Virus record (IMG/VR): IMGVR_UViG_3300007539_000167
Coordinates: 1-26,823 of that record
DNA length: 26,823 nucleotides
Reading direction: 5' to 3' (one strand)
DNA from: a virus
Both the position numbers and the translations under genes were made by a program. This document shows, piece by piece, positions 1 to 26,823 of this stretch. The notes beneath the pieces are model-generated. The model made no database searches and had not been told where the DNA came from. It saw only the letters and a list, made by a program, of their open reading frames with translations. Every line of letters starts with the position of its first letter. The stretch's first letter is position 1.

Positions 1-1185
1 ACACCAACCATTGGCGATGCAACAATAACTTTGGCTGCTGGCGACGGTCTTGACAGCGGTGGATCTTTCACCACAAACCAGACAGGCATTGCAACAATAA
101 CGTTTAATGTTGATAGCACAGTTGTTAGAACAACTGGCGCGCAGACAATTGCAGGCAACAAAACTTTTACTGGGCAAACAGAACTTCAAGGAACACCAAC
201 AAATCCTGTAGTATTAAGGGCGACAGATAACACTGGATCTTCAAACGCTTTTCAATTGATTAGCGATTTTGATAGAGACGTTGGTTTTGCTTACATCAAT
301 GGCGTTACTGGAAGAGAATGGCGTACATGGATTGATGGTGCAGATGATGACAATTTTATAATTTCCGCCAACGGGTCTTCAAACATTGTCCTTGAATTGG
401 ACGAAACTGATTATAGTGTAGATGTTGTTTCTGGAAGTTTCAAGACTGCTGGCACAATTAGAATTACAAACGCTGGCGTGTTGCAGAACGTTACTGGTGA
501 TGCTGCCATTATAAACAGCGGAATATTTGATTCAGCAAGAATCCCAGTCTTAACTGCATCCGACATAGTTGGTGGGATCTTTGATAGCGCGCAGATACCT
601 TCGCTTGACATTAACACAGACACGCATGGTATTATTGATAGCGACAGACTGCCGCCGACAGTTACAACAAACAACGCAACAATAACTCTAGATGCTGGCG
701 CTGGATTATTGATTGGTGGCGACTTCACGGTCAACCAAGTTGCAAACGAAACAATCACATTCCAGGTGGACTCTTCTACGATTCCAACTCTGGCAGCAAA
801 CAACATATTCACTGGAACAAACACTTTCAACGAAATAGTTCGGCATGCCACAACTGCCGGAACGGTTGTTGCGGGTGATTTCGTTCAAACAGCCACATAC
901 ACATCAACAGCGCAGCAGACATTCGCAAGCATTGATACAGCAACATGGGGCGGAGGTAAAGCAATCATTAACGCAACAAGAGGTTCTGATAGACATATCA
1001 CAGAACTCATGATTGTGCACGACACAACAACAGCAACAGCAACCGAATATGGTATTGTGACAACTAATGGCGAACTGGCAACATATGATGTGGACATATC
1101 AGGCGGTAACTTTAGAATTCTGATAACACCCAATTCTGCAACCTCAACCAAATTTGATATGACAATGAAATTAATGGATGTGTAA
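1..1185 (+). CDS. Tail fibre-like structural protein, 5' partial
   Basis: The frame is open from base 1, so the true start lies upstream; the TTG at 31 is only an internal codon. The visible 394 codons are rich in T, N, G, S and D and poor in charged helix formers, as in beta-rich phage fibres. A module of the form N/D-ATITL-x-AG-x-GL-x2-GG-x-FT-x-NQ followed by TITF-x-VDS occurs twice (DNA about 12-117 and 675-774). Between them are short repeats of the type G-I-FDSA-R/Q-IP. Such modules are common in fibre proteins of marine T4-like phages. No enzymatic motif is visible. It ends in a TAATG overlap with the first LamG gene, so the two are probably translated together. Its place before gp13 matches the T4 region for short tail fibre and whiskers, but I see no gp12 or fibritin signature. 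Fibre or adhesin is inferred from composition and context. Confidence 0.65.
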   Translation, partial: TPTIGDATITLAAGDGLDSGGSFTTNQTGIATITFNVDSTVVRTTGAQTIAGNKTFTGQTELQGTPTNPVVLRATDNTGSSNAFQLISDFDRDVGFAYINGVTGREWRTWIDGADDDNFIISANGSSNIVLELDETDYSVDVVSGSFKTAGTIRITNAGVLQNVTGDAAIINSGIFDSARIPVLTASDIVGGIFDSAQIPSLDINTDTHGIIDSDRLPPTVTTNNATITLDAGAGLLIGGDFTVNQVANETITFQVDSSTIPTLAANNIFTGTNTFNEIVRHATTAGTVVAGDFVQTATYTSTAQQTFASIDTATWGGGKAIINATRGSDRHITELMIVHDTTTATATEYGIVTTNGELATYDVDISGGNFRILITPNSATSTKFDMTMKLMDV

Positions 1186-1901
1186 TGGCAACTAATTATA
1201 ATCCCAAGACAAACAACAATGGGTTAGTGCTTTGTTTGGATGCTGCGAACCCAAAATCATATAGCGGTTCCGGTTCTACTTTTACTGATATCAGCAAGAC
1301 AAAGATTAATGCTACTATTACTGGAACAACATATGATTCTTCTGCAAAGGCGTTTACGTTTGCATCTTCTTCTGACTATATCACAACAGGCACAAGTTAC
1401 GTTAATACAGGTGGAGAGATAGGTAACGGGGATATCGCTTACACGATAGAAGCTCTTGTCAAGATAGATGGAGAGTCATTGCTTGGCACTAATATCTTGA
1501 GTGACGGATCAAGCATTATTGGTCAAAACAACGCTGGCGGAATTGGACTTCAGGTTTATAAACCTGCATCCGGGAGAAAATTTAATTTCGGGGCAAGAAG
1601 CAACGATAACTTTGATAGTAACAGTACCTTCCAACTCGGAGTTTGGTATCATGTTGTTGCAACTCGTGAAGTTGGCGTCAACAACTACATTTATATTAAT
1701 GGCGTTGAGGACGCAACATATACCTCAGCACAGTTAGACGTTAATTCAACTGTCACCACTATGAGAATGGGTTATGCACCAGGAAGGATCGTACAGCCTC
1801 TGGATGGTCAAATAGCTCTTGTTCGATTGTATAATACCCACTTCACACCAGAACAAGTTAAGATCAACTACAATGCTGTTCGCGGAAGGTTTGGTTTATA
1901 A
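1185..1901 (+). CDS. LamG/concanavalin-like lectin-fold protein 1
   Basis: This 238-aa protein has the pattern of a single Laminin_G_3/concanavalin A-like jelly-roll domain. The N-terminal motif CLDAANPKSYSGSGST is followed by strands typical of the family, then WYHVVATRE, the hairpin YIYINGVED, and a closing LDGQIALVRLYN with TPEQVKINYNA. It ends in RGRFGL, an ending shared by the next two genes. The fold commonly binds carbohydrate or forms adhesion modules; in a phage this suggests receptor binding or fibre decoration. No signal peptide or membrane segment is seen. The ATG shares one base with the preceding stop (TAATG), and its own stop does the same with the next gene. It is the most divergent of the three in its first third. 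The fold call is fairly secure; the ligand is unknown. Confidence 0.75.
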   Translation: MATNYNPKTNNNGLVLCLDAANPKSYSGSGSTFTDISKTKINATITGTTYDSSAKAFTFASSSDYITTGTSYVNTGGEIGNGDIAYTIEALVKIDGESLLGTNILSDGSSIIGQNNAGGIGLQVYKPASGRKFNFGARSNDNFDSNSTFQLGVWYHVVATREVGVNNYIYINGVEDATYTSAQLDVNSTVTTMRMGYAPGRIVQPLDGQIALVRLYNTHFTPEQVKINYNAVRGRFGL

Positions 1902-2593
1902 TGGCACTTCATCATAGTCCCAAAATAGAAACAAACAACCTGGTCTTTTACTGCGACTTCGCCAACTCTAAAAGTTATCCTGGAAGCGGAAGCACTGCAT
2001 ACTCTTTAACAAAGGACAAACTCTCTGGCGCAATCAACAGTCCGGCAACAGTAACAGACGGGTATCTTGACCTGCCAAATACTGGTGCAAGTCATGTGGA
2101 CTGGGGAGACAATGTGAAGATTTCTGGTAGTTTTTCTATGAACATTTGGTTTTATGGTTCTTCCAATCAGGGTGCAACGTTCGCTTGCCTTTTTGGTAAA
2201 GGTGGAACCAACTTTGGAAACTACGGGTTCTTTGCAGACACCACTGACACCTATGTTCGGTTTGGGTTCTATAACGGGTCCAATCAGCCAGAAGTTGACG
2301 CAGATGCATACAGCGATGTTAAAGCTGAAACATGGGTTAATTATCAGGGAACCTATGATATCACAACAGGACTTAAACTTTATAGAAACTCAGTCTTGGT
2401 TGATAGTCTAGCAGACACAACAACGCCAGATAGCACAGTTACCTGGCCTCTGGCAATTGGCGCAAGATTAGATGCAGGAGGCGACGATCGCTTTAGGGGG
2501 CGTGTTGGGTTATGTTCAATTTATGACACTTGGTTGACACAGGATCAAGTTCTGAAAAACTTTAATGCCCACAAGGGAAGGTACGGGTTATAA
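1901..2593 (+). CDS. LamG/concanavalin-like lectin-fold protein 2
   Basis: This 230-aa paralogue of its neighbours starts with LVFYCDFANSKSYPGSGST. It keeps the central FSMNIWFY strand, a WVNYQGTYD strand where the others have WYH-V, the KLYRNSVLVD hairpin, and the closing RGRVGLCSIYDTWLTQDQVL. The C-terminus is NAHKGRYGL. This is the expected length for one stand-alone LamG_3-type domain. TAATG overlaps link it to both neighbours, giving a three-gene translational relay. The likely role is a virion-surface carbohydrate-binding or fibre-tip subunit, inferred from the fold and from its position before the neck genes. It could instead be a structural decoration protein with no lectin activity. 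Confidence 0.75.
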   Translation: MALHHSPKIETNNLVFYCDFANSKSYPGSGSTAYSLTKDKLSGAINSPATVTDGYLDLPNTGASHVDWGDNVKISGSFSMNIWFYGSSNQGATFACLFGKGGTNFGNYGFFADTTDTYVRFGFYNGSNQPEVDADAYSDVKAETWVNYQGTYDITTGLKLYRNSVLVDSLADTTTPDSTVTWPLAIGARLDAGGDDRFRGRVGLCSIYDTWLTQDQVLKNFNAHKGRYGL

Positions 2594-3321
2594 TGGCTGC
2601 CTTTGCTGGACCAAATGTTCTTTCTACTTCTTTAATTGGTTTCTGGGATGCTGCCAACTCAAAGAGTTACGCTGGGTCAGGCAGCACTTGGTATGACTTA
2701 ACTGAGAACGGAAACCATGCAACATTAGGTGGTGCAGTTGCTTACAGCAGCGACGACCTCGGTAAAATGTCATTTGGTAACACAGGTGATGTTGTGACCT
2801 TTCCTGATGTGCCTCTTTTTGATTTTGGAGCAAACAACTTTACTGTTGGTGGTTGGTTTTATCTGGCAGGTTCTTGGACCTCAACAAACGGCGGTAGGCG
2901 AGGGCAATTTATAACCAAGTGGAATACAGGTGCACAGCTTGGAACAAACGAGTGGTTCCTGGGCCTGGGTGGCAGTCAGACGGCAAGATATCCAACCTTT
3001 ACTATAGAAGGAGGAACAACCCTCTACCAGGTTCAGACAGCGTCAGATATTAGTGTTCCTGGTTGGTATCATTTTGTTGGCGTGAGAGAAACTAACACTA
3101 CCAAGTTGTACATTAATGGCGAACTTGAAGGTTCTGCAGATGTAACAGGCGTAACTGTAAACACGATATCAGCAAGACAAATGAAGTTGGGTGTTATTGA
3201 CGGACCATCCAATGCAGGATTTTACCGCGACATTCCTTTGGTTTACGTTTTTAATCGAGATCTGTCTGGCGGTGAGGTCAAACAGTTATTCAATGCTCAT
3301 CGAGGTAGGTACGGTTTATAA
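2593..3321 (+). CDS. LamG/concanavalin-like lectin-fold protein 3
   Basis: This 242-aa protein is the third tandem paralogue. It opens with LIGFWDAANSKSYAGSGSTW and YDLTENGNHATL, the canonical phage LamG N-terminus. It continues with NFTVGGWFY, then WYHFVGVRE with the hairpin KLYINGELEG, and ends in FNRDLSGGEVKQLFNAHRGRYGL-type sequence. It looks the closest of the three to the family consensus. The start overlaps the previous stop by one base. Its own stop codon lies inside a late promoter octamer (3317-3324), so the three-gene lectin unit ends exactly where the next late transcript is set up. A role in host adhesion is inferred from the fold and position. Confidence 0.77.
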   Translation: MAAFAGPNVLSTSLIGFWDAANSKSYAGSGSTWYDLTENGNHATLGGAVAYSSDDLGKMSFGNTGDVVTFPDVPLFDFGANNFTVGGWFYLAGSWTSTNGGRRGQFITKWNTGAQLGTNEWFLGLGGSQTARYPTFTIEGGTTLYQVQTASDISVPGWYHFVGVRETNTTKLYINGELEGSADVTGVTVNTISARQMKLGVIDGPSNAGFYRDIPLVYVFNRDLSGGEVKQLFNAHRGRYGL

Positions 3322-5390: not shown

Positions 5391-6281
5391 ATGGCGCTCA
5401 ACCGTTACATAAGCAGAGGTTCAAGAAACGAGCAATATCTTCTTGAAGATTTGATCATTGAATCTATCCAGCAGTATGGAACTGACACCTATTATATTCC
5501 AAGAGAACTTGTTTACAAAGATGAGATTTTCTTGGATGACAATTCTTCTAAATTCCAGAATGCATATAAACTGGAGATGTTTATAGAGAACACTGATGGG
5601 TTTGAAGGTGACCGAGATCTTTTTACAAAGTTTGGCGTAGAGATAAGAGACGCCGCAACATTCATTGTCTCAAGAAGAAGATTCAAGTCAACGGTGGGTT
5701 CGTTTGAAGAGTCACCAATAAACCCATTCTATCGACCAAGAGAAGGGGATTTGGTTTATTTGCCGTTGTCGCAGTCGTTCTTCCAAATCATGAAAGTTGA
5801 GGACGAAACGCCGTTTTACCAACTGAACAATCTGCCAACATTCAGAATGACCTGTGAGTTGTTTGAATACAACGATGAAGATTTTGATACTAACATTGAG
5901 GAAATTGATGATATTGAAGAGTTCGCAACGTACCAATACGTTCTTTCGCTGAGTTCTGTTACTGGTGATTTCAGTGTTGGTGAAGATGTCACGCAGGTCA
6001 ACTCAAACTTCAACATCACTGGCGAGGTTGTCAACTGGAATGATTCTGATGACAAACTCTATCTGGCGCACGTTAGAACCTCTGATGGCGAGTACCATAA
6101 TTTTGTTCTGGGCACTGTTGTTACTGGCGCAGAAACTGGCACAACAGGTATTCCTTCGCTGATTGAAGAACTACAGAATATACAAGAGACAGCACAGAAT
6201 GATACGTTCAGCACATTTGCTGCAGACTTCATCGATTGGACAGAGAGCAACCCCTTTGGAGATCCATCAGACTCGCCATAA
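5391..6281 (+). CDS. gp14: Neck protein gp14
   Basis: This 296-aa protein is the T4 gp14 family, the partner of gp13 at the neck. The N-terminal part (MALNRYISRGSRNEQYLLED, then YGTDTYYIPRELVYKDEIF and IRDAATFIVSRRRF) is the conserved core. It is about 40 residues longer than T4 gp14. The extra length fits an inserted beta-rich domain at about residues 185-260 (SSVTGDFSVGEDVTQ through VVTGAETG), a module also seen in marine relatives. The C-terminus carries NPFGDPSDSP, and the six residues NPFGDP recur at the C-terminus of the next gene's product, an endonuclease. No strong Shine-Dalgarno is visible; the 5-nt distance to the gp13 stop suggests coupling. Confidence 0.87.
   Translation: MALNRYISRGSRNEQYLLEDLIIESIQQYGTDTYYIPRELVYKDEIFLDDNSSKFQNAYKLEMFIENTDGFEGDRDLFTKFGVEIRDAATFIVSRRRFKSTVGSFEESPINPFYRPREGDLVYLPLSQSFFQIMKVEDETPFYQLNNLPTFRMTCELFEYNDEDFDTNIEEIDDIEEFATYQYVLSLSSVTGDFSVGEDVTQVNSNFNITGEVVNWNDSDDKLYLAHVRTSDGEYHNFVLGTVVTGAETGTTGIPSLIEELQNIQETAQNDTFSTFAADFIDWTESNPFGDPSDSP
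6249..6266 (+). repeat. Copy 1 of an 18-bp diverged repeat encoding NPFGDP (end of gp14)
   Basis: These bases encode NPFGDP near the end of gp14. A second copy lies 803 bp downstream at 7052-7069, at the end of the homing endonuclease gene. The two 18-mers differ at four positions, all third codon positions, so the peptide is identical. Confidence 0.6.
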
Positions 6282-6317: not shown

Positions 6318-6325
6318 TATAAATA
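6318..6325 (+). promoter_or_regulatory. T4-type late promoter before the first homing endonuclease
   Basis: This exact TATAAATA is preceded by GTG, the same local context as the promoter before the second endonuclease. The expected transcription start is near 6331, about 109 nt before the endonuclease ATG at 6440. A short ACCC/GGGT inverted repeat with a 3-nt loop lies just upstream (6307-6317). Confidence 0.83.
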
Positions 6326-6327
6326 TA

Positions 6328-6483
6328 ATGTGGGAATTGGAAGATTTAGAAAAAGCAACTAGATTGCAAGGATTGGGTTTCTTTCTAGATGTTTCCGATA
6401 CTGAATTGGCAGAAACTTTATACAACAAAAGGGTTCAAGATGTACAAACTATATCTGAAGGAACACAACAAGACAGGACTTAA
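6328..6483 (+). CDS. Possible 51-aa small ORF, perhaps a gene remnant
   Basis: ATG at 6328 opens a 51-codon frame ending at TAA 6481-6483 and overlapping the endonuclease start by 44 nt. The first about 37 residues (MWELEDLEKATRLQG, then DVSDTELAETLYNKRV) look like a plausible amphipathic helical protein, while the last about 14 lie in sequence shared with the endonuclease leader and start. No Shine-Dalgarno precedes it. Its ATG also lies upstream of the start predicted for the promoter at 6318, so that promoter's transcript would not contain it; only read-through from upstream would. It may be a truncated gene left by endonuclease insertion, a leader peptide or chance. I do not recognise a family. 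Confidence 0.28.
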   Translation: MWELEDLEKATRLQGLGFFLDVSDTELAETLYNKRVQDVQTISEGTQQDRT

Positions 6484-7075
6484 ATATTTGGGTTACACTA
6501 AAAAAGAAGATGCCCACAAATATACTGGGTCTGGAGTACACTGGAAGAGACATATAGCAAAACACGGTTATGATGTAACGACTACCGTTTTGTTTGAAAC
6601 CGAATGTAAGAACGAATTGAAAGAGAAGGGAATCCAACTGTCGCAAAAATATGGAGTAATCGACAATCCTGAGTTCGCTAACTTGAAAACGGAAGAGGGG
6701 GTTAGCGGGGAGTATGGACAAATTGCGAGAAAGAAGATGAGCGAATCGGCAAAGAAAAGAGGCGCACCCGTTGGTGCATTTACTTCTGAAAAAGTGGCAG
6801 AACTAAATAGAAAGACATGGCAAGACCCAGAGATCAGAAAGAAACGTTCCGAAGGTATAAGTAAAGCACTTAAAGGAAAGAAACGTGCGCCTCGTTCTGA
6901 AGAGTTTAAAAGGTTGATGAGCGAAAAGTTAAAGGGTCGCTCGTACGGTAAGGGTTTGAAACACAATTTGAAAGCAGTTACTTGCCCGCACTGCAATAAA
7001 GAAGGAAAAGGTCCAAACATGACAAGATATCACTTCGATAATTGCAAGGAGAATCCGTTTGGGGATCCGCAGTAA
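6440..7075 (+). CDS. Homing endonuclease, GIY-YIG-like with NUMOD3-type repeats
   Basis: This 211-aa protein starts at ATG 6440, supported by AAAAGGG with 6-nt spacing and because the family normally begins MYKLYLKEHNKTGLKYLGYT; the in-frame ATG at 6389 adds 17 unrelated residues. That opening is a variant of the GIY-YIG nuclease motif (KLYL...KYLGYT), followed by KYTGSGVHWKRHIAKHG. The basic middle (about residues 95-170) has repeated helices of the NUMOD3 type (RKKMSESAKKRG, RKKRSEGISKALKGKK, FKRLMSEKLKGR), expected to bind DNA. A C-terminal zinc-finger-like set is formed by C182, C185, H198 and C202. Free-standing endonucleases of this kind cut related phage genomes lacking the gene and spread by recombination. 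It ends in NPFGDPQ, mirroring the gp14 tail, and overlaps the next gene by TAATG. It lies between gp14 and gp15, adjacent in T4. Confidence 0.8.
   Translation: MYKLYLKEHNKTGLKYLGYTKKEDAHKYTGSGVHWKRHIAKHGYDVTTTVLFETECKNELKEKGIQLSQKYGVIDNPEFANLKTEEGVSGEYGQIARKKMSESAKKRGAPVGAFTSEKVAELNRKTWQDPEIRKKRSEGISKALKGKKRAPRSEEFKRLMSEKLKGRSYGKGLKHNLKAVTCPHCNKEGKGPNMTRYHFDNCKENPFGDPQ
7052..7069 (+). repeat. Copy 2 of the repeat encoding NPFGDP (end of endonuclease)
   Basis: This encodes NPFGDP two codons before the endonuclease stop and matches 6249-6266 at 14 of 18 bases, with all differences synonymous. Together the copies bracket the endonuclease gene. Confidence 0.6.
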
Positions 7076-7470
7076 TGTTGTCGTTTAGAAGGTACATTGA
7101 AGAAAGCGTTACAGACCCGTTCTCTCGGGAAAAAACCGGAAGAAAGAAAATAGACGACATGCTAAAAAACCCAAAGAAATATGGCGTAGAGGCAGAAGTT
7201 AAAATAATGACGATTAAAGCATTACAAAATGCTATGGCTAAGGGACAAAAGATCAGTGTGCAGAAAGCGTACGATAAGAGAATGAAGATGGGCGGAAGAA
7301 AAAAGGTAGATAACCTGAAGGACTTGATCAAAAGCGGCACGAAAATAGATATGCCAATTTTGGATTATGCTCCTGGGGGATTTGTGCAGGATGGTTTTCA
7401 TAGAGCACTAGCAGCGCAAGAGTTGGGAATAAAGAAAATTCCTGTGGCTGTTATTAAGAGAAAACGATAA
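7075..7470 (+). CDS. Small ParB/sulfiredoxin-like domain protein
   Basis: This 131-aa protein starts at ATG 7075, sharing one base with the endonuclease stop; the in-frame TTG at 7042 would run back into the endonuclease gene. The C-terminal segment GGFVQDGFHRALAAQELG followed by KKIPVAVIKR (residues 101-129) matches the ParB N-terminal/sulfiredoxin-like signature, in which a DG-x-HR core (D106, H109, R110) sits in a nucleotide-binding pocket. ParB family members bind CTP or act as nucleases; the activity here is unknown. Residues 20-90 are lysine-rich and helical, suggesting nucleic acid contact. The N-terminus MLSFRRYIEES resembles the capsid-targeting peptide of T4 internal proteins (MKTYQEFIAEA), with an I-x-E protease site at I8-E9-E10. 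A TAATG overlap links it to gp15. Domain call moderate; capsid targeting is inference. Confidence 0.6.
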   Translation: MLSFRRYIEESVTDPFSREKTGRKKIDDMLKNPKKYGVEAEVKIMTIKALQNAMAKGQKISVQKAYDKRMKMGGRKKVDNLKDLIKSGTKIDMPILDYAPGGFVQDGFHRALAAQELGIKKIPVAVIKRKR

Positions 7471-8261
7471 TGTTTTCTCAACATTTTTACCACCAACGCA
7501 TTCGTAAGGCAGTTGCCGTATTTGGTTCTCTGTTTGACAACATTTACATTGTTCGTCCAGGATCCACAACATCTTCTGTCAATCAGGCAAAGGTGCCATT
7601 GAGTTATGCTCCAAAGAGAAACTTCATTGAGCGCATTGAACAGATGAGTCGTGGGGAAGACAACGAAAGACAAATTGCAATCAAACTGCCAAGGATGTCT
7701 TTTGAGATTGTTTCTATTGATTATGATGCAGTTAGACAGTTACAGAAAACATTAAAGTGTTCGTTTCCTGGAACAGACAACACTTCTAAAAAGTCTGTAT
7801 ATGCCCAAACACCATACAACCTTTCTTTTGAGTTGAATGTCTATGCAAAATCACAAGATGATGCATTACAAATTGTAGAACAGATAATTCCATACTTTAA
7901 CCCGCAGTACACCTTGACGGTAAAACCAATCAAGGAGTTGCCAGAAATTAAAGATGATGTTCCAATCACTCTGGAAGCAGTTTCCTTCACAGATGATTAT
8001 GAAGGTCCGCTAGAGCAGAGAAGAACAATCATCTACACATTATCTTTCCAGATGAAGATTGCGTTCTATGGACCAGTTAATGATAACGCACCTATAATTA
8101 GAGAAGTTAGAGGAGAAGTTTACGAGCAAGACTTTGCCTTGAACGATAGTGCTGGTCCTCTAGAAACATTGATAACAACACCAAACCCATTGAACGTAAG
8201 TCCAGATAGCGACTTTACAGTTGATACTGAAATTTATACTGCATTAGATAGTGTGCCATGA
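7470..8261 (+). CDS. gp15: Tail completion and sheath stabiliser protein gp15
   Basis: This 263-aa protein is close to T4 gp15 in length (272 aa). The family forms a hexameric ring that caps the tail tube and sheath and connects the tail to the neck. The N-terminal block MFSQHFYHQRIRKAVAVFGS with LFDNIYIV is characteristic, followed by PLSYAPKRNFIERIEQM and the conserved PRMSFEIVSIDYDA. The middle has FELNVYAKSQDDALQIVEQI and YFNPQYTLTVKPI, also family hallmarks. The start overlaps the preceding stop (TAATG). The stop overlaps an ATG (ATGA at 8258-8261) that opens only a nine-codon frame, perhaps a relic of an earlier junction with gp16 before the endonuclease arrived. Confidence 0.9.
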   Translation: MFSQHFYHQRIRKAVAVFGSLFDNIYIVRPGSTTSSVNQAKVPLSYAPKRNFIERIEQMSRGEDNERQIAIKLPRMSFEIVSIDYDAVRQLQKTLKCSFPGTDNTSKKSVYAQTPYNLSFELNVYAKSQDDALQIVEQIIPYFNPQYTLTVKPIKELPEIKDDVPITLEAVSFTDDYEGPLEQRRTIIYTLSFQMKIAFYGPVNDNAPIIREVRGEVYEQDFALNDSAGPLETLITTPNPLNVSPDSDFTVDTEIYTALDSVP

Positions 8262-8323: not shown

Positions 8324-8350
8324 CTAATAACTAAGATGGAGTTATCAGCA

Positions 8351-9115
8351 ATGTCTATTTATTACACATACAAAATACTGTTTTCTTCCGGTCATTATTA
8401 TATCGGAAGAAGAAAGTGTCCAGAAAACAAAACCCCTGAAACGGATGAATATTATGGTTCTCCTGTGTCTAACGAACGTTATTGGAAAAAATATACTTTT
8501 AAAAAGGAAATACTAGAAACATTCAATAGCAGTGCCTACCATATCGAAAACGAAGATTTTTATTTGGGCGATAAGTGGAAAACAGATCCGCTTTGTTTGA
8601 ATAATAGTCCCGCTAATAGTTTTTCAAACTCAGGGTTGATTTGGTGTAACGATGGATCAAAGGAGTATATGTATTCTTTTATACCTGAAGGTTTCAAAAA
8701 GGGAAGGATAGGAACATCTGCGAAAGGTAAAAGATATTATACCAACGGCACAGATTCAAAGATGTTCGAAGAAGGTTCAGAACCTATGGGTTGGAAACTA
8801 GGGAACCATAATTCTAAAGGCGACAAAAATTGTTCTAGAACACACGGTAGTTCAACAAAAAATAAAATGGTGTTTAATAACGGCGAGGAAACAATATATC
8901 TGTCAAGGGAAGAGACAATCCCTGCAGGGTATGTTCCTGGAAGAACAAAAGATTTTTGTTCCAAGAGGAAGCATGCAGTATCTGGTAAGAACAACCCACG
9001 ATACGGGACAAGAGGAGAAAAGTGGTATAACAACGGAACTATAAATAAATTATGCATCCCAGGTAACGAACCAAAGGGATTTGTTAGAGGAATGAGAAAA
9101 AATGAAAGACGATAA
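8351..9115 (+). CDS. Homing endonuclease, GIY-YIG with four C-terminal repeats
   Basis: This 254-aa protein starts at ATG 8351, chosen because GGAG (8338-8341) lies 9 nt upstream and the family begins right at the nuclease motif; an in-frame ATG at 8336 overlaps that GGAG. Residues 4-23 (YYTYKILFSSGHYYIGRRKC) are a GIY-YIG variant, with R20/R21 as candidate catalytic arginine and a glutamate around 66-69 as the likely metal ligand. From residue 97 come four copies of an approximately 25-residue repeat of form W/Y-x-N-D/N-G ... P-x-G-F/W/Y-x2-G (about 97-119, 128-151, 172-198, 223-247), probably DNA-contact units. The gene lies between gp15 and gp16, normally adjacent, and overlaps gp16 by 14 nt. 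A late promoter and stem-loop precede it, and another late promoter lies within its 3' end. Confidence 0.82.
   Translation: MSIYYTYKILFSSGHYYIGRRKCPENKTPETDEYYGSPVSNERYWKKYTFKKEILETFNSSAYHIENEDFYLGDKWKTDPLCLNNSPANSFSNSGLIWCNDGSKEYMYSFIPEGFKKGRIGTSAKGKRYYTNGTDSKMFEEGSEPMGWKLGNHNSKGDKNCSRTHGSSTKNKMVFNNGEETIYLSREETIPAGYVPGRTKDFCSKRKHAVSGKNNPRYGTRGEKWYNNGTINKLCIPGNEPKGFVRGMRKNERR
9040..9047 (+). promoter_or_regulatory. T4-type late promoter inside the endonuclease gene, before gp16-gp17
   Basis: This exact TATAAATA lies in the last repeat of the endonuclease gene, encoding T-I-N-K. Transcription would start near 9053, 49 nt before the gp16 ATG. As there is no other octamer before the terminase genes, it could restore their late expression downstream of the insertion. 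Being inside a coding frame it is less certain than the intergenic ones. Confidence 0.6.
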
Positions 9116-15345: not shown

Positions 15346-16428
15346 ATGGAAAACGAAGTTGTTGCTGCCTTTGGTGTTGCATACGCTAAGAAGAAAAGCG
15401 AGAATTTACAAAGACAGATCGAAGAACTTTCTAGGGTTCCCGGCCCACAGGGAAAGCAAGGTCCAAAGGGCGATAAGGGAGTTAAAGGCGATCGAGGAAC
15501 AAAGGGCGACAAAGGCGCCAAAGGAGACAAAGGAGACAAAGGCGATACTGGTCCGCAAGGTTTACTTGGGCCTCAAGGAATTCAAGGTCAGCGCGGGGAT
15601 GCTGGACCTAAAGGGGACAAGGGCGAGACTGGTGAACAAGGTCCACAAGGCGTCACTGGCGATCGAGGTTTACAAGGTCCACAAGGTTTAACTGGTCTCA
15701 AAGGAGACAAGGGCGAACAAGGAGAGAAGGGTCTCAAAGGAGACAAGGGAGATATTGGACTTCGTGGCGAAACAGGTCCACAAGGACCGCAGGGAATTCC
15801 TGGCCCGCAAGGTGAAAAAGGTGAAACTGGACCTGCAGGACCAGCAGGACCGCAAGGACCAATAGGCAACGTAGGTCCGCAAGGTCTGCAGGGAATCCAA
15901 GGAGAACAAGGAGAGAGGGGAGAGAGAGGCGAACAAGGCGAATCTGCCCCAGACTATTCCCCAAAATTTGATGCGCTGCTTGAAGATTTCAATAGAAAGA
16001 TTTCCGAAAGCCAAAAAGAAATAAATAGAAAGGTAGACCAAAGATTACAGAATCTTTCTTCTATCAGTGGAGGTGGTTCATATAAGTTATTGGATAATGC
16101 TGACGTTGAAAAGACAAAGTTGAGCAACGTTGTCGGCGATAGCATTCTTATATTCGACCCAAACACGCAAAAGTTTCGACCTGAAAGTTTTGTGGATATT
16201 CTAAACAGACTTAGAACGGAACTAGAAGTGAAGTATAACAAACTTATTGATGTTGAAGGAAATTACACCTACATTGGAGAAGCATTACCAGGAACAGCAA
16301 CAAGTGCTTCTAAATGGAGGATAAGAAGAATTGAAGAAGTTGGTGATGATTTTAACATATTATGGGCAGATGGAACTGCCGAATTTACTAAAATCTGGGA
16401 CGATAGACTGTCCTTTAGTTTCTCATAG
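15346..16428 (+). CDS. Collagen-like virion fibre protein
   Basis: This 360-aa protein has an N-terminal helical segment (residues 1-31) and then 56 uninterrupted Gly-X-Y triplets (33-200). These are rich in GDK, GPQ and GET, a sequence type that forms a collagen triple helix. A probable trimeric coiled coil follows (about 208-240, FDALLEDFNRKISESQKEIN). The C-terminal domain has YIGEALPGTATSASKWRIRR and ILWADGTAEFTKIWDDR, a pattern common to C-termini of phage collagen-like proteins. Trimeric fibre on the capsid or tail surface is inferred from this architecture. T4 has no such gene after the portal. ATG 15346 is two bases after the gp20 stop, so translation is probably coupled. The array is lysine- and aspartate-rich with few prolines in the third position, as expected for bacterial collagens that lack prolyl hydroxylation. 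Confidence 0.85.
   Translation: MENEVVAAFGVAYAKKKSENLQRQIEELSRVPGPQGKQGPKGDKGVKGDRGTKGDKGAKGDKGDKGDTGPQGLLGPQGIQGQRGDAGPKGDKGETGEQGPQGVTGDRGLQGPQGLTGLKGDKGEQGEKGLKGDKGDIGLRGETGPQGPQGIPGPQGEKGETGPAGPAGPQGPIGNVGPQGLQGIQGEQGERGERGEQGESAPDYSPKFDALLEDFNRKISESQKEINRKVDQRLQNLSSISGGGSYKLLDNADVEKTKLSNVVGDSILIFDPNTQKFRPESFVDILNRLRTELEVKYNKLIDVEGNYTYIGEALPGTATSASKWRIRRIEEVGDDFNILWADGTAEFTKIWDDRLSFSFS
15442..15945 (+). repeat. Collagen Gly-X-Y repeat tract
   Basis: This tract encodes 56 consecutive Gly-X-Y triplets. At DNA level the 9-base pattern for GDK/GET units recurs with silent variation, and the opposite strand consequently shows long spurious proline-rich frames. Confidence 0.9.
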
Positions 16429-24539: not shown

Positions 24540-24746
24540 ATGAAAAGATTTTCAGAAATAAGAGAAGCAGTCTCCAGCAAAAGCAAAGGAGAATCTGTCT
24601 TTTCTAAAAAAGTTGGAAAGGTAAAAGTCTCTGTCAATAAAGACAGCAAGGGATTCACTGTCTTTATTGATGGCGACAAACTAGATACCTATCGGACTCA
24701 GAAAGAGGCAGAAAAGATGGGCATCGAATTCGCAAAGGAAATGTAA
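24540..24746 (+). CDS. gp68: Prohead core protein gp68
   Basis: This 68-aa basic protein is in the position of T4 gene 68 (141 aa), a minor prohead core protein. The N-terminus MKRFSEIREAV carries an I-R-E/A site fitting the gp21 cleavage rule, and resembles the capsid-targeting peptide of T4 internal proteins. The rest (VGKVKVSVNKDSKGFTVFID, then YRTQKEAEKMGIEFAKEM) looks like a small beta-beta-alpha fold. It is about half the T4 length, as in other environmental T4-like phages. No Shine-Dalgarno is visible. The stop overlaps the gp21 start. Confidence 0.68.
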   Translation: MKRFSEIREAVSSKSKGESVFSKKVGKVKVSVNKDSKGFTVFIDGDKLDTYRTQKEAEKMGIEFAKEM

Positions 24747-25408
24747 TGAAACTAATAGCAGAATATGCGGAAGAAATAGAATACATTACCGAAGCAACTA
24801 AGGACGGCAATAAGAACTATTATATCGAAGGAATCTTTGCACAAGCAAATAAAAAGAACAGAAACGGTCGTGTTTACTCGAAGAACATCATGGAACAGGC
24901 CGTTGATAAATACGTTACAGAACAGGTTAGTCAAGGTCGTGCTGTTGGTGAATTGAATCACCCTGAAGGTCCAACGATTAACCTTGATAAAGTTTCCCAC
25001 AAGATCACCGAACTTAAATGGGATGGTGATAATGTGATTGGAAAGGCATCTATATTAGACACCCCAAACGGTAAGATTGTAAAAGGTCTGCTTGATGGCG
25101 GAGTTCGATTAGGTGTTTCAACTCGTGGTATGGGTAGTCTTGAGTCTAGGAATGGCGTTAATTATGTACGCGACGACTTTATATTGAATACAGTCGACAT
25201 CGTACAAGATCCATCTGCTCACGAAGCCTTCGTTAATGGTATTAACGAAGGCGTTGATTGGGTTTGGAACAATGGCGTTATTCAACCTCAAGTAATTGAA
25301 AATATAGAGACAGAAATTAAAAGTGCTCCGGCAAAAGATCAGTACGAAGTGCAGATTCGTGAGTTCAAAAATTTCCTCTCGTTGCTTAAATCAAAAACTA
25401 AGGAGTAA
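24746..25408 (+). CDS. gp21: Prohead maturation protease gp21
   Basis: This 220-aa protein is the T4 gp21 family serine protease (212 aa in T4), which matures the prohead by cutting core and shell proteins after L/I-x-E and then itself. The family blocks KNRNGRVYSK, VGELNHPEGPTINLDKVSHK and GGVRLGVSTRGMGSL are present. H72 (in LNHP) and S125 (in GVSTRG) are the likely catalytic pair, with a conserved VDIVQDPSAHEAFV block (about 150-163) following. Residues 14-17 (ITEA) form a candidate self-cleavage site. The start overlaps the gp68 stop by TAATG. gp22 follows after 5 nt. Confidence 0.94.
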   Translation: MKLIAEYAEEIEYITEATKDGNKNYYIEGIFAQANKKNRNGRVYSKNIMEQAVDKYVTEQVSQGRAVGELNHPEGPTINLDKVSHKITELKWDGDNVIGKASILDTPNGKIVKGLLDGGVRLGVSTRGMGSLESRNGVNYVRDDFILNTVDIVQDPSAHEAFVNGINEGVDWVWNNGVIQPQVIENIETEIKSAPAKDQYEVQIREFKNFLSLLKSKTKE

Positions 25409-25413
25409 TCAAT

Positions 25414-26472
25414 ATGAGCGAAGATCAAGAATTTGATTTCGAAGATGTTGAACTTCCAAATGGTGAAGACAACCTAGAGGAAGGAAAACACGACATGGAA
25501 GGTGCAGAAAGACAGTCAATTGATACTGTTGATAAGACAGACGATTCTATCAAGAAAGCACCTAAGCGCACTGGTGACAAGGGTCATCAAGATCCAATGC
25601 CTAAAACTAAGGCAGGCATGCTTAACGCAATGGTCGCTAAGATGACTGGTCTTGGTAAGCAAGAACTTTCTGCAATGTACAGCAAAATGTCTGAAGAATT
25701 CGGCGAGTTTGAAGCAGAAGATTCAGAAGAACTGGAAGAAAATTCTTATGATTTCTCAGAAGAATTGACTAATCTGGTTGAATCAGAAGCGACTCTTTCC
25801 GATGAGTTCAAGGCAAAGTCTGCTGTTATTTTTGAAACTGCAATCAAGACAACAATTTCTGAAGAAGTTGATCGTCTTGAAAATGAATATCAAACTCAAC
25901 TTGCTGAAGAAATCGAGGCAACTCGTGATGATTTGGTAGAGAAGGTTGATAGCTACCTCAACTATGTTGTTGAAACTTGGATGACGGAAAACGAAGTGGC
26001 AATCGAGCAAGGTCTGCGTACCGAGATTGCTGAAGATTTCATGGGCAATCTGAAAGACCTGTTTGTTGAATCTTACATCGAAGTTCCTGAGTCTAAAATT
26101 GACCTGGTTGACGAACTTGCAGATCAAGTTGAAAGTCTGGAAGAAAAACTGAACGAGCAAACTTCAAGCGTTCTGGAAATGTCAGAAGAACTGGAAGCAT
26201 ACAAGCGCGCAATCATTGTTGCCGAGCATGCTGAAGATATGGCAGAAACAGAAGCAGAGAAGCTTGGTTCGCTGGTTGAATCTCTCGACTTTGAAGATGA
26301 AGATTCATTCTTCGAAAAAGTTAAAACCGTCAAAGAATCATACTTCAAGAAGTCTAGGCCTGCTATCGAAGCAGAAACTGAAGACATGAACGAAGAATGG
26401 GACGGTGAAGAAGTAAAACCTGTTAGCTCCAATATGCAGAAGTATATTGATGCTCTGAACATTCGATCTTAA
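25414..26472 (+). CDS. gp22: Prohead scaffolding core protein gp22
   Basis: This 352-aa acidic, helical protein is in the T4 gene 22 position (269 aa in T4), the main internal scaffold around which gp23 assembles and which gp21 then degrades to peptides. The region TKAGMLNAMVAKMTGLGKQE (about residues 65-84) and the coiled-coil-rich centre (about 120-300) with VDSYLNYVVETWMTENEVAI are typical. The N-terminal about 60 residues are a low-complexity acidic and basic stretch longer than in T4. Many L/I-x-E sites are present. The start is supported by AAGGAG at about 8 nt. The C-terminus NMQKYIDALNIRS resembles the family's shell-contacting end. Confidence 0.9.
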   Translation: MSEDQEFDFEDVELPNGEDNLEEGKHDMEGAERQSIDTVDKTDDSIKKAPKRTGDKGHQDPMPKTKAGMLNAMVAKMTGLGKQELSAMYSKMSEEFGEFEAEDSEELEENSYDFSEELTNLVESEATLSDEFKAKSAVIFETAIKTTISEEVDRLENEYQTQLAEEIEATRDDLVEKVDSYLNYVVETWMTENEVAIEQGLRTEIAEDFMGNLKDLFVESYIEVPESKIDLVDELADQVESLEEKLNEQTSSVLEMSEELEAYKRAIIVAEHAEDMAETEAEKLGSLVESLDFEDEDSFFEKVKTVKESYFKKSRPAIEAETEDMNEEWDGEEVKPVSSNMQKYIDALNIRS

Positions 26473-26496: not shown

Positions 26497-26823
26497 ATGG
26501 ATCACACATACAGAAATTTAATCGAGAAGTGGGACGGTCTGCTTAACGCAGAAGGCGTTCCTGCTATCGAAGATTACCACCGTAAAGCAGTTACTGCTGC
26601 TGTACTGGAATCAACAGAACGTGAACTGTCTGAAGCAAGCGAAATGCTGAACGAAGCATCTCCGACTTCAGCCGGTGACGTTAACAACTGGAACCCAGTT
26701 CTTATCGCTCTTGTTCGTCGTGCAATGCCTAACCTGATGGCATATGACGTTTGTGGCGTTCAGCCGATGTCAGGTCCTACTGGTCTGATCTTTGCTATGC
26801 GTTCACTGTACAAGTCAAGCAAG
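26497..26823 (+). CDS. gp23: Major capsid protein gp23, 3' partial
   Basis: The first 109 residues are present and the gene runs off the window. WNPVLIALVRRAMPNLMAYD with VCGVQPMSGPTGLIFAMRS is the strongly conserved gp23 block. The residues before it form the N-terminal propeptide removed by gp21. Candidate cleavage points are L44-S-E46/A47 and L51-N-E53/A54; T4 gp23 is cut after E65. The start is supported by AAGGGG at about 8-nt spacing. There is no TATAAATA immediately upstream, unlike T4, so gp23 transcription seems to come from the promoter at 24526 or from beyond what I can recognise. Confidence 0.95.
   Translation, partial: MDHTYRNLIEKWDGLLNAEGVPAIEDYHRKAVTAAVLESTERELSEASEMLNEASPTSAGDVNNWNPVLIALVRRAMPNLMAYDVCGVQPMSGPTGLIFAMRSLYKSSK

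Follow-up and report, generated by a model that had tools for sequence, protein, structure and literature searches.

A short gene among the neck genes of an uncultured T4-like phage

Is the small basic protein encoded between two neck genes of an uncultured marine phage loaded into the phage head and injected together with the DNA? The non-DNA material injected by phages is known in detail for only a few of them. The stretch analyzed here (the window, 26,823 nucleotides) is a 26.8 kb fragment of an uncultured marine T4-like phage, the closest annotated DNA being that of Phage C48C1 (Kyanoviridae), whose terminase gene is 70% identical. Genes are ordered gp13, gp14, a homing endonuclease gene, the gene under study, gp15, a second endonuclease-like gene, gp16 and gp17, and onward to gp20, gp21, gp22 and gp23. 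As given in a preliminary description of this DNA, the open reading frame begins with an ATG at 7075, its stop codon ends at 7470, and it encodes 131 aa (MLSFRRYIEES...VQDGFHRALAAQELGIKKIPVAVIKRKR); a TAATG overlap joins it to both neighboring genes. The neck region contains the following features:

5391..6281, + strand: gp14 neck protein with a diverged end (NPFGDPSDSP), from profile matches and junction comparison
6440..7075, + strand: homing endonuclease gene (phrog_314), whose terminal zinc finger is fused to a copy of the gene 14 end
7075..7470, + strand: putatively CTS-tagged ParB/Srx-like protein, 131 aa, pI 10.1, no cysteine
7470..8261, + strand: gp15 tail sheath stabiliser, with a TAATG start overlap with the ParB/Srx gene

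The second endonuclease-like gene (phrog_10820; 8336-9115), between gp15 and gp16, has its own late-promoter motif. Elsewhere in the window, three tandem paralogous ORFs (1185-3321) have a common N-terminal motif (like LDAANPKSYSGSGSTF) and are probably fibre or LamG-type proteins, and a collagen-like G-x-y repeat protein (15346-16428) lies immediately after the portal gene.

The N-terminus resembles the capsid-targeting peptide of T4 internal proteins

Membership of the T4-type internal proteins was assessed on a capsid-targeting sequence (residues 4 and 7 for targeting, 8 and 10 for processing), the conservation of this tag across homologues, a small basic mature protein, and the presence of a gp21-type protease and a gp22-type scaffold in the same phage. 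For T4 IPIII, the first ten residues alone are needed for loading, and mutational mapping of the T4 tag gave most weight to residues 4 and 7 in targeting and to residues 8 and 10 in processing (PMC9026906). In the T4 record, ipII and ipIII both start with MKTYQEFIAEA. The likeness of MLSFRRYIEES to this peptide, which had been pointed out beforehand, holds in the IPII/IPIII register at F4 and Y7 (targeting) and at I8 and E10 (processing), so that the first of these features is met, while residues 2 and 6 (L and R) depart from the usual K and E/Q.

7075..7104, + strand: capsid-targeting-like peptide MLSFRRYIEE (F4, Y7, I8, E10), with a predicted prohead-protease cut after E10
7105..7140, + strand: variable linker past the predicted cut, with 2/11 aligned residues shared with the relative L001 (see below), versus 6/10 in the tag

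E10 ends the sole [LI]xE site of the 131-aa protein. The earlier view of the product as small and basic was borne out, with a pI of 10.1 for the 131 aa and of 10.2 for the 121 aa that would remain after the predicted cut, and the feature of a small basic mature protein is therefore met.

A degenerate DNA pattern for the tag matched the window once, at 7075, T4 three times (ipII, ipIII and gene 61.1) and C48C1 twice, and gave no match in 100 dinucleotide shuffles. C48C1 encodes three proteins with the tag. At the protein level, the tag motif was found at none of approximately 7,100 internal methionines (T4, C48C1, HTVC008M, the window, L001 and 80 T4-like loci), nor at the first methionine of any of 1,734 ORFs in the 80 T4-like loci. 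Since the residue classes of the motif were picked with knowledge of this protein, the strongest evidence is that of the tests that came later and are independent of motif choice, i.e., L001, C48C1, T4 gene 61.1 and the IMG/VR scans.

T4 gene 61.1 (L088:18966-19130), annotated as hypothetical, starts with MKTFKEFIKED and matches the ipII/ipIII tag; judging by this N-terminus, its product may be an unrecognised T4 internal protein.

Prohead protease, scaffold and late-promoter motifs in the window

Both a gp21-type protease and a gp22-type scaffold are encoded in the window, by which the corresponding membership feature is met. These genes, the major capsid gene and the late-promoter motif nearest to the neck insertion are located as follows:

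24746..25408, + strand: gp21-type prohead protease (Peptidase_S77; PF03420, E=1e-40), the enzyme expected to cut the tag
25414..26472, + strand: gp22-type scaffold (phrog_237, E=1.5e-76), the core expected to be bound by such tags
26497..26823, + strand: gp23 major capsid protein, cut by the window end, with L-N-E/A at residue 53
6318..6325, + strand: TATAAATA, T4-type late-promoter motif preceding the homing endonuclease gene and lying 757 nt upstream of the tagged gene

The motif TATAAATA occurs 11 times in the window versus 0.77 expected, ten of these being on the coding (+) strand. The coding-strand positions are 3317, 4598, 6318, 8279, 9040, 11199, 13574, 16430, 20754 and 24526, most of them just before a gene. 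At the gp68 position, a small ORF (24540-24746) starts with MKRFSEIREAVSS, which is tag-like in a register one residue shorter (I-R-E at residue 9).

The remainder of the protein has a ParB/Srx-like fold

7294..7467, + strand: ParB/Srx core, residues 74-131, including QDGFHR..AAQELGIKKIP
7390..7404, + strand: DGFHR motif, D106-R110, at the position of the superfamily nucleotide-binding signature; role inferred from Srx/GmrS (PMC4619093)

In profile searches, the 131-aa protein matched phrog_1033, 'ParB-like partition protein' (E=4.9e-7), and phrog_8071 (E=6e-6), and the NCBIfam models for SerK and SbnI, both ParB/Srx-fold enzymes, matched residues 76-130 with weak E-values. A Pfam search gave no match, and a sequence search of the PDB returned nothing significant. 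An AlphaFold model, for which the alignment comprised two sequences only, reached a pLDDT of 75 and a pTM of 0.68. Residues 1-20 were below pLDDT 50, and such very low model confidence is as expected for a detachable tag. When the model was compared with the PDB by Foldseek, the best matches belonged almost exclusively to the ParB/Srx superfamily (Noc, ParB, sulfiredoxin, SerK, SbnI, Osa), with probabilities of up to 0.99 and E-values of just ~0.03, and the second match of a BFVD structure search is named ParB/Sulfiredoxin. The fold proposed in the preliminary description is thus supported both by the PHROG ParB match (E=5e-7) and by the structural comparison with ParB and sulfiredoxin folds that had been suggested as a check; on this basis, we consider membership of the fold as met, with the caveat that it rests on a two-sequence model and a Foldseek E of ~0.03. 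D106, H109 and R110 were read in the ORF exactly where they had been placed, and the signature expected at the DGxHR / GGCHR / GERR position is present, DGFHR being identical in L001. That this motif takes part in nucleotide binding is inferred by analogy.

Specific identities within the superfamily were tried and rejected. Sulfiredoxin was discarded as F108 stands where GGCHR has the catalytic cysteine, and sulfiredoxin chemistry is excluded because the protein has no cysteine at all. The partition protein ParB (a CTPase clamp) was also discarded: there is no Pfam ParB_N match, and the protein, of 131 aa and ending 21 residues after DGFHR, is too short for the HTH and the C-terminal dimer domain.

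BLAST searches against cultured phages with the 131-aa protein and its L001 relative yielded only weak partial matches to the ParB core, and phrog_1033 was absent from the cultured cyanophages tried, HTVC008M, C48C1 and T4.

Tag and domain are conserved in a relative at an unrelated locus

The only full-length relative in IMG/VR was L001, with 43% identity and at an unrelated locus near nrdA. Its N-terminus, MKTFNQYIEEN, shares M1, F4, Y7, I8, E9 and E10; by segment, identity amounts to 6/10 in the tag, then 2/11, and 33/57 in the core, which reads as a conserved tag, a free linker and a conserved domain. Conservation of the tag across homologues is hence met, with one homologue. The ParB/Srx gene was missing from all 80 nearest gp15 loci; given this and the single full-length relative, the gene is rare and may have arrived only recently.

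Around the L001 gene (L001:829-5735), four tag-like N-termini lie within 5 kb. Besides the ParB/Srx relative itself, three neighbors start in this way: one is HVA1-like (MLSFKQHAEAT), one has EEVEQVDE repeat units (MKTFKELSEKI) and one resembles 61.1 (MKTFKQFTEEAMTAGDAG); MKTFKQFTEEA is among the neighbor starts.

Tagged ParB/Srx proteins recur across IMG/VR

A survey of the N-termini of ParB-like proteins in T4-like phages, also suggested beforehand, was performed as a pattern scan of IMG/VR for the tag followed by DGxHR roughly 87-107 codons on. It retrieved 44 stretches, 38 of them in frame, which correspond to 25 distinct tag-plus-ParB/Srx proteins; L113, L114, L123, L125, L138 and L144 were set aside from the 44 as out of frame, truncated or not ParB. 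The same scan with a permuted tag found none, and with H and R swapped in the motif it found eight, which belong to other families, mostly to one other tagged family. Features outside the pattern were shared as well, residue 3 being T/S in 25/25 and residue 6 being E/Q in 19/25, and PHROG ParB-like profiles matched several members. L001 aside, identity to the 131-aa protein was 11-29%. Many of the tag-ParB genes of T4-like contigs sit between gp15 and gp17, i.e., in the neck/terminase cluster that also holds 7075-7470. An S77 protease was seen in 5/29 contigs with the combination, most contigs being fragments; the tag-ParB contigs of 136 and 202 kb have the protease together with 5 and 4 tag matches, respectively, versus 0 for the reversed pattern.

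Single-linkage clustering of the 38 tag-ParB proteins gave three groups. As the clustering merges proteins through the ParB core, we refrain from inferring that the domain arose independently many times. BLAST of four other tag-ParB families against cultured phages gave nothing for two of them and only a partial match for one; one other family matched Bacillus phage G gp541 (28% identity). A structure model of a second family (L111) had a pLDDT of 38 and was left unused. Since the same tag is found on other ParB/Srx-type proteins in dozens of environmental T4 relatives, the tagged proteins look, as far as can be told from sequence, like a class of injected phage proteins that recurs and has not been described so far.

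With a strict tag pattern, at least 83 sites were found in IMG/VR, 82 of 83 beginning ORFs of at least 25 aa, and the cargo formed at least 29 clusters among the matches listed (the first 83 sites). An S77 protease was present in six of the eight tag-bearing contigs of at least 90 kb tested. No match was obtained in cultured cyanophages, HTVC008M, Melnitz-1 or immuto, and the absence from cultured cyanophages, HTVC008M and Melnitz indicates that the tag is not universal among marine T4-like phages. Judged by these pattern matches, some T4-like lineages carry the tag often, whereas others lack it or have a different one; the range of cargo behind it, the census suggests, is larger. Inspected by eye, some of the cargo behind MKTFxxFIxEA starts (L153-L232) is acetyltransferase-, ADP-ribosyltransferase-, RlpA-like-, HAD- or nucleotidyltransferase-like.

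The tagged gene lies behind a copied gp14/gp15 junction

In relatives, gp14 ends with NPFGDPQ (or similar) and gp15 starts within the same TAATG. A copy of this junction was located at the end of the endonuclease gene:

7052..7077, + strand: AATCCGTTTGGGGATCCGCAGTAATG, copy of the relatives' gp14/gp15 junction, 23-24/26 nt

The window's own gp14 end matches the relatives' junction at only 17-18/26 nt. Related endonucleases mostly end in ...HFDNCKEKK or close to it, and the window's endonuclease reads ...HFDNCKENPFGDPQ. From the junction copy at the endonuclease end and the diverged gp14 end, it seems that the endonuclease gene acquired the end of gene 14. Between the copied junction and a second TAATG lies the tagged gene.

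The gp14/gp15 junction may be a homing hotspot. In another T4-like contig (L317:1871-1971), an endonuclease-type zinc finger is found at this junction without the tagged gene. Several contigs (L030, L036, L039-L041, L044-L046, L056-L057) have a gp14 insert of roughly 300-380 residues after residue 189, laminin-G-like by eye.

Proposed role and alternative explanations

We consider it likely that the 131-aa protein belongs to the T4-type internal (ejected) head proteins and has a ParB/Srx domain as cargo; this estimate extends to the packaged-protein part only, and prohead loading, cleavage after E10 and injection are inferred by analogy with T4. The proposal builds on what was observed: a conserved match to the T4 tag, the ParB/Srx-like fold, motifs of late promoters, genes for the protease and scaffold in the window, and the recurrent combination of tag and domain. 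The fold assignment and the capsid-targeting reading are supported, as they survived L001 conservation, the control patterns and the structure model. The tagged gene would be transcribed late, together with the neck genes, the first ten residues would bind the prohead core, and the phage's gp21 protease would cut after Glu10, so that the basic 121-aa ParB/Srx domain would remain with the packaged DNA and enter the next host with it. There, its most likely task would be to shield the DNA it arrives with from a defence of the restriction type. T4 Ip1, Ip2 and Ip3 do this, each against a different GmrSD enzyme (PMC12373910). The GmrS subunit adopts a ParB/Srx fold and has the signature DGQQR (PMC4619093), and the injected domain might stand in for, or poison, this subunit; alternatively, it might act by direct nucleotide or DNA binding or by nuclease activity, the latter having been reported for Osa (cited in PMC4619093). 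The host target remains speculative and argued from analogy, with restriction as the best lead.

It might be objected that this is a ParB-like DNA-binding or nuclease protein that is made during infection and acts in the cytoplasm, and that the likeness of its N-terminal helix to the T4 tag is accidental. Phages commonly encode small ParB/Srx proteins, tag positions 2 and 6 are non-canonical, and the motif was recognised after the fact. However, no match to the tag pattern was found in 100 shuffles, the tag stands out as conserved next to a diverged linker, tag and DGxHR co-occurred 44 times versus none for the permuted tag, and the neighbors of the L001 gene bear the same tag, all of which leaves a chance likeness improbable in our view. 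We give similarly little weight to a packaging helper that enters the prohead via its tag and acts with the terminase or at DNA ends, without being an injected effector. This would suit the nucleotide and DNA binding of ParB-type domains and the position of the tagged ParB/Srx gene of several families between gp15 and gp17, adjoining the terminase genes; yet the close relatives examined package DNA without the gene, the L001 copy adjoins nrdA and other tagged genes, away from the terminase, and T4 internal proteins are non-essential (PMC12373910).

That the endonuclease and tagged genes form one mobile cassette, in which the protein serves homing, is very hard to sustain. Its basis is that the tagged gene lies directly 3' of an endonuclease gene ending in a copy of the gene 14 end, but no endonuclease was seen beside the L001 relative, and in L317 the tagged gene is missing from a gp14/gp15 junction that has an endonuclease-type zinc finger. 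A passenger status in an endonuclease cassette is compatible with an internal head protein, and a homing role is not supported.

A broader proposition, rather unlikely at present, would be that tagged ParB/Srx proteins are a widespread injected anti-defence class that disarms ParB/Srx-subunit enzymes (GmrS/DUF262, DndB-like) by subunit mimicry or replacement, and a module of tag-based delivery by which environmental T4-like phages carry cargo from dozens of unrelated families. As the ten-residue tag is readable in DNA, it allows candidate injected proteins of uncultured phages to be listed; it points to ParB/Srx proteins as repeated cargo, each being a directly testable candidate counter-defence protein.

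Comparison with known systems

Delivery of internal proteins by such a tag is known, and it has been suggested in a review that T4-like phages can use the tag for cargo of various kinds (PMC9026906); the three internal proteins of T4 have all been tied to GmrSD restriction only recently (PMC12373910). No paper combining ParB and capsid targeting was found in the open-access literature, most subscription journals being outside this scope. The preliminary description had regarded a packaged ParB-like protein as a new kind of effector. This has to be narrowed, because a ParB-like stretch is already present in the annotated 'structural protein' of Pseudomonas phage Epa33/LKA5, a giant protein annotated as part of the virion, which differs in its size (~3,800 aa), comes from a non-T4 phage and is matched by the tag-ParB family L104, not by the 131-aa protein. 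What stands as new is therefore that small stand-alone ParB/Srx proteins bear a T4-type tag.

With T4 Ip1, Ip2 and Ip3 (and Alt), the protein shares the ten-residue N-terminal tag with key residues 4, 7, 8 and 10, and, with the T4 internal proteins, a small basic mature part, a T4-type protease and scaffold in the phage and a late-promoter motif upstream; it differs from them in its ParB/Srx-fold cargo, in its location in the neck gene cluster instead of an ip locus, and in that its presence in virions is unproven. With the ParB/Srx superfamily (ParB, Noc, Srx, SerK, SbnI, Osa), it has in common the predicted fold and the DGxHR..A...LG...IPV core, but it is one small domain without cysteine and without room for the helix-turn-helix or dimer domain of partition ParB. 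Lastly, it resembles GmrS, the DUF262 subunit of GmrSD type IV restriction enzymes, in the ParB/Srx fold and in DGxxR (DGQQR in GmrS, DGFHR here); there is no sequence match between them and the link is a literature-derived hypothesis, GmrSD being the very system countered by the T4 internal proteins.
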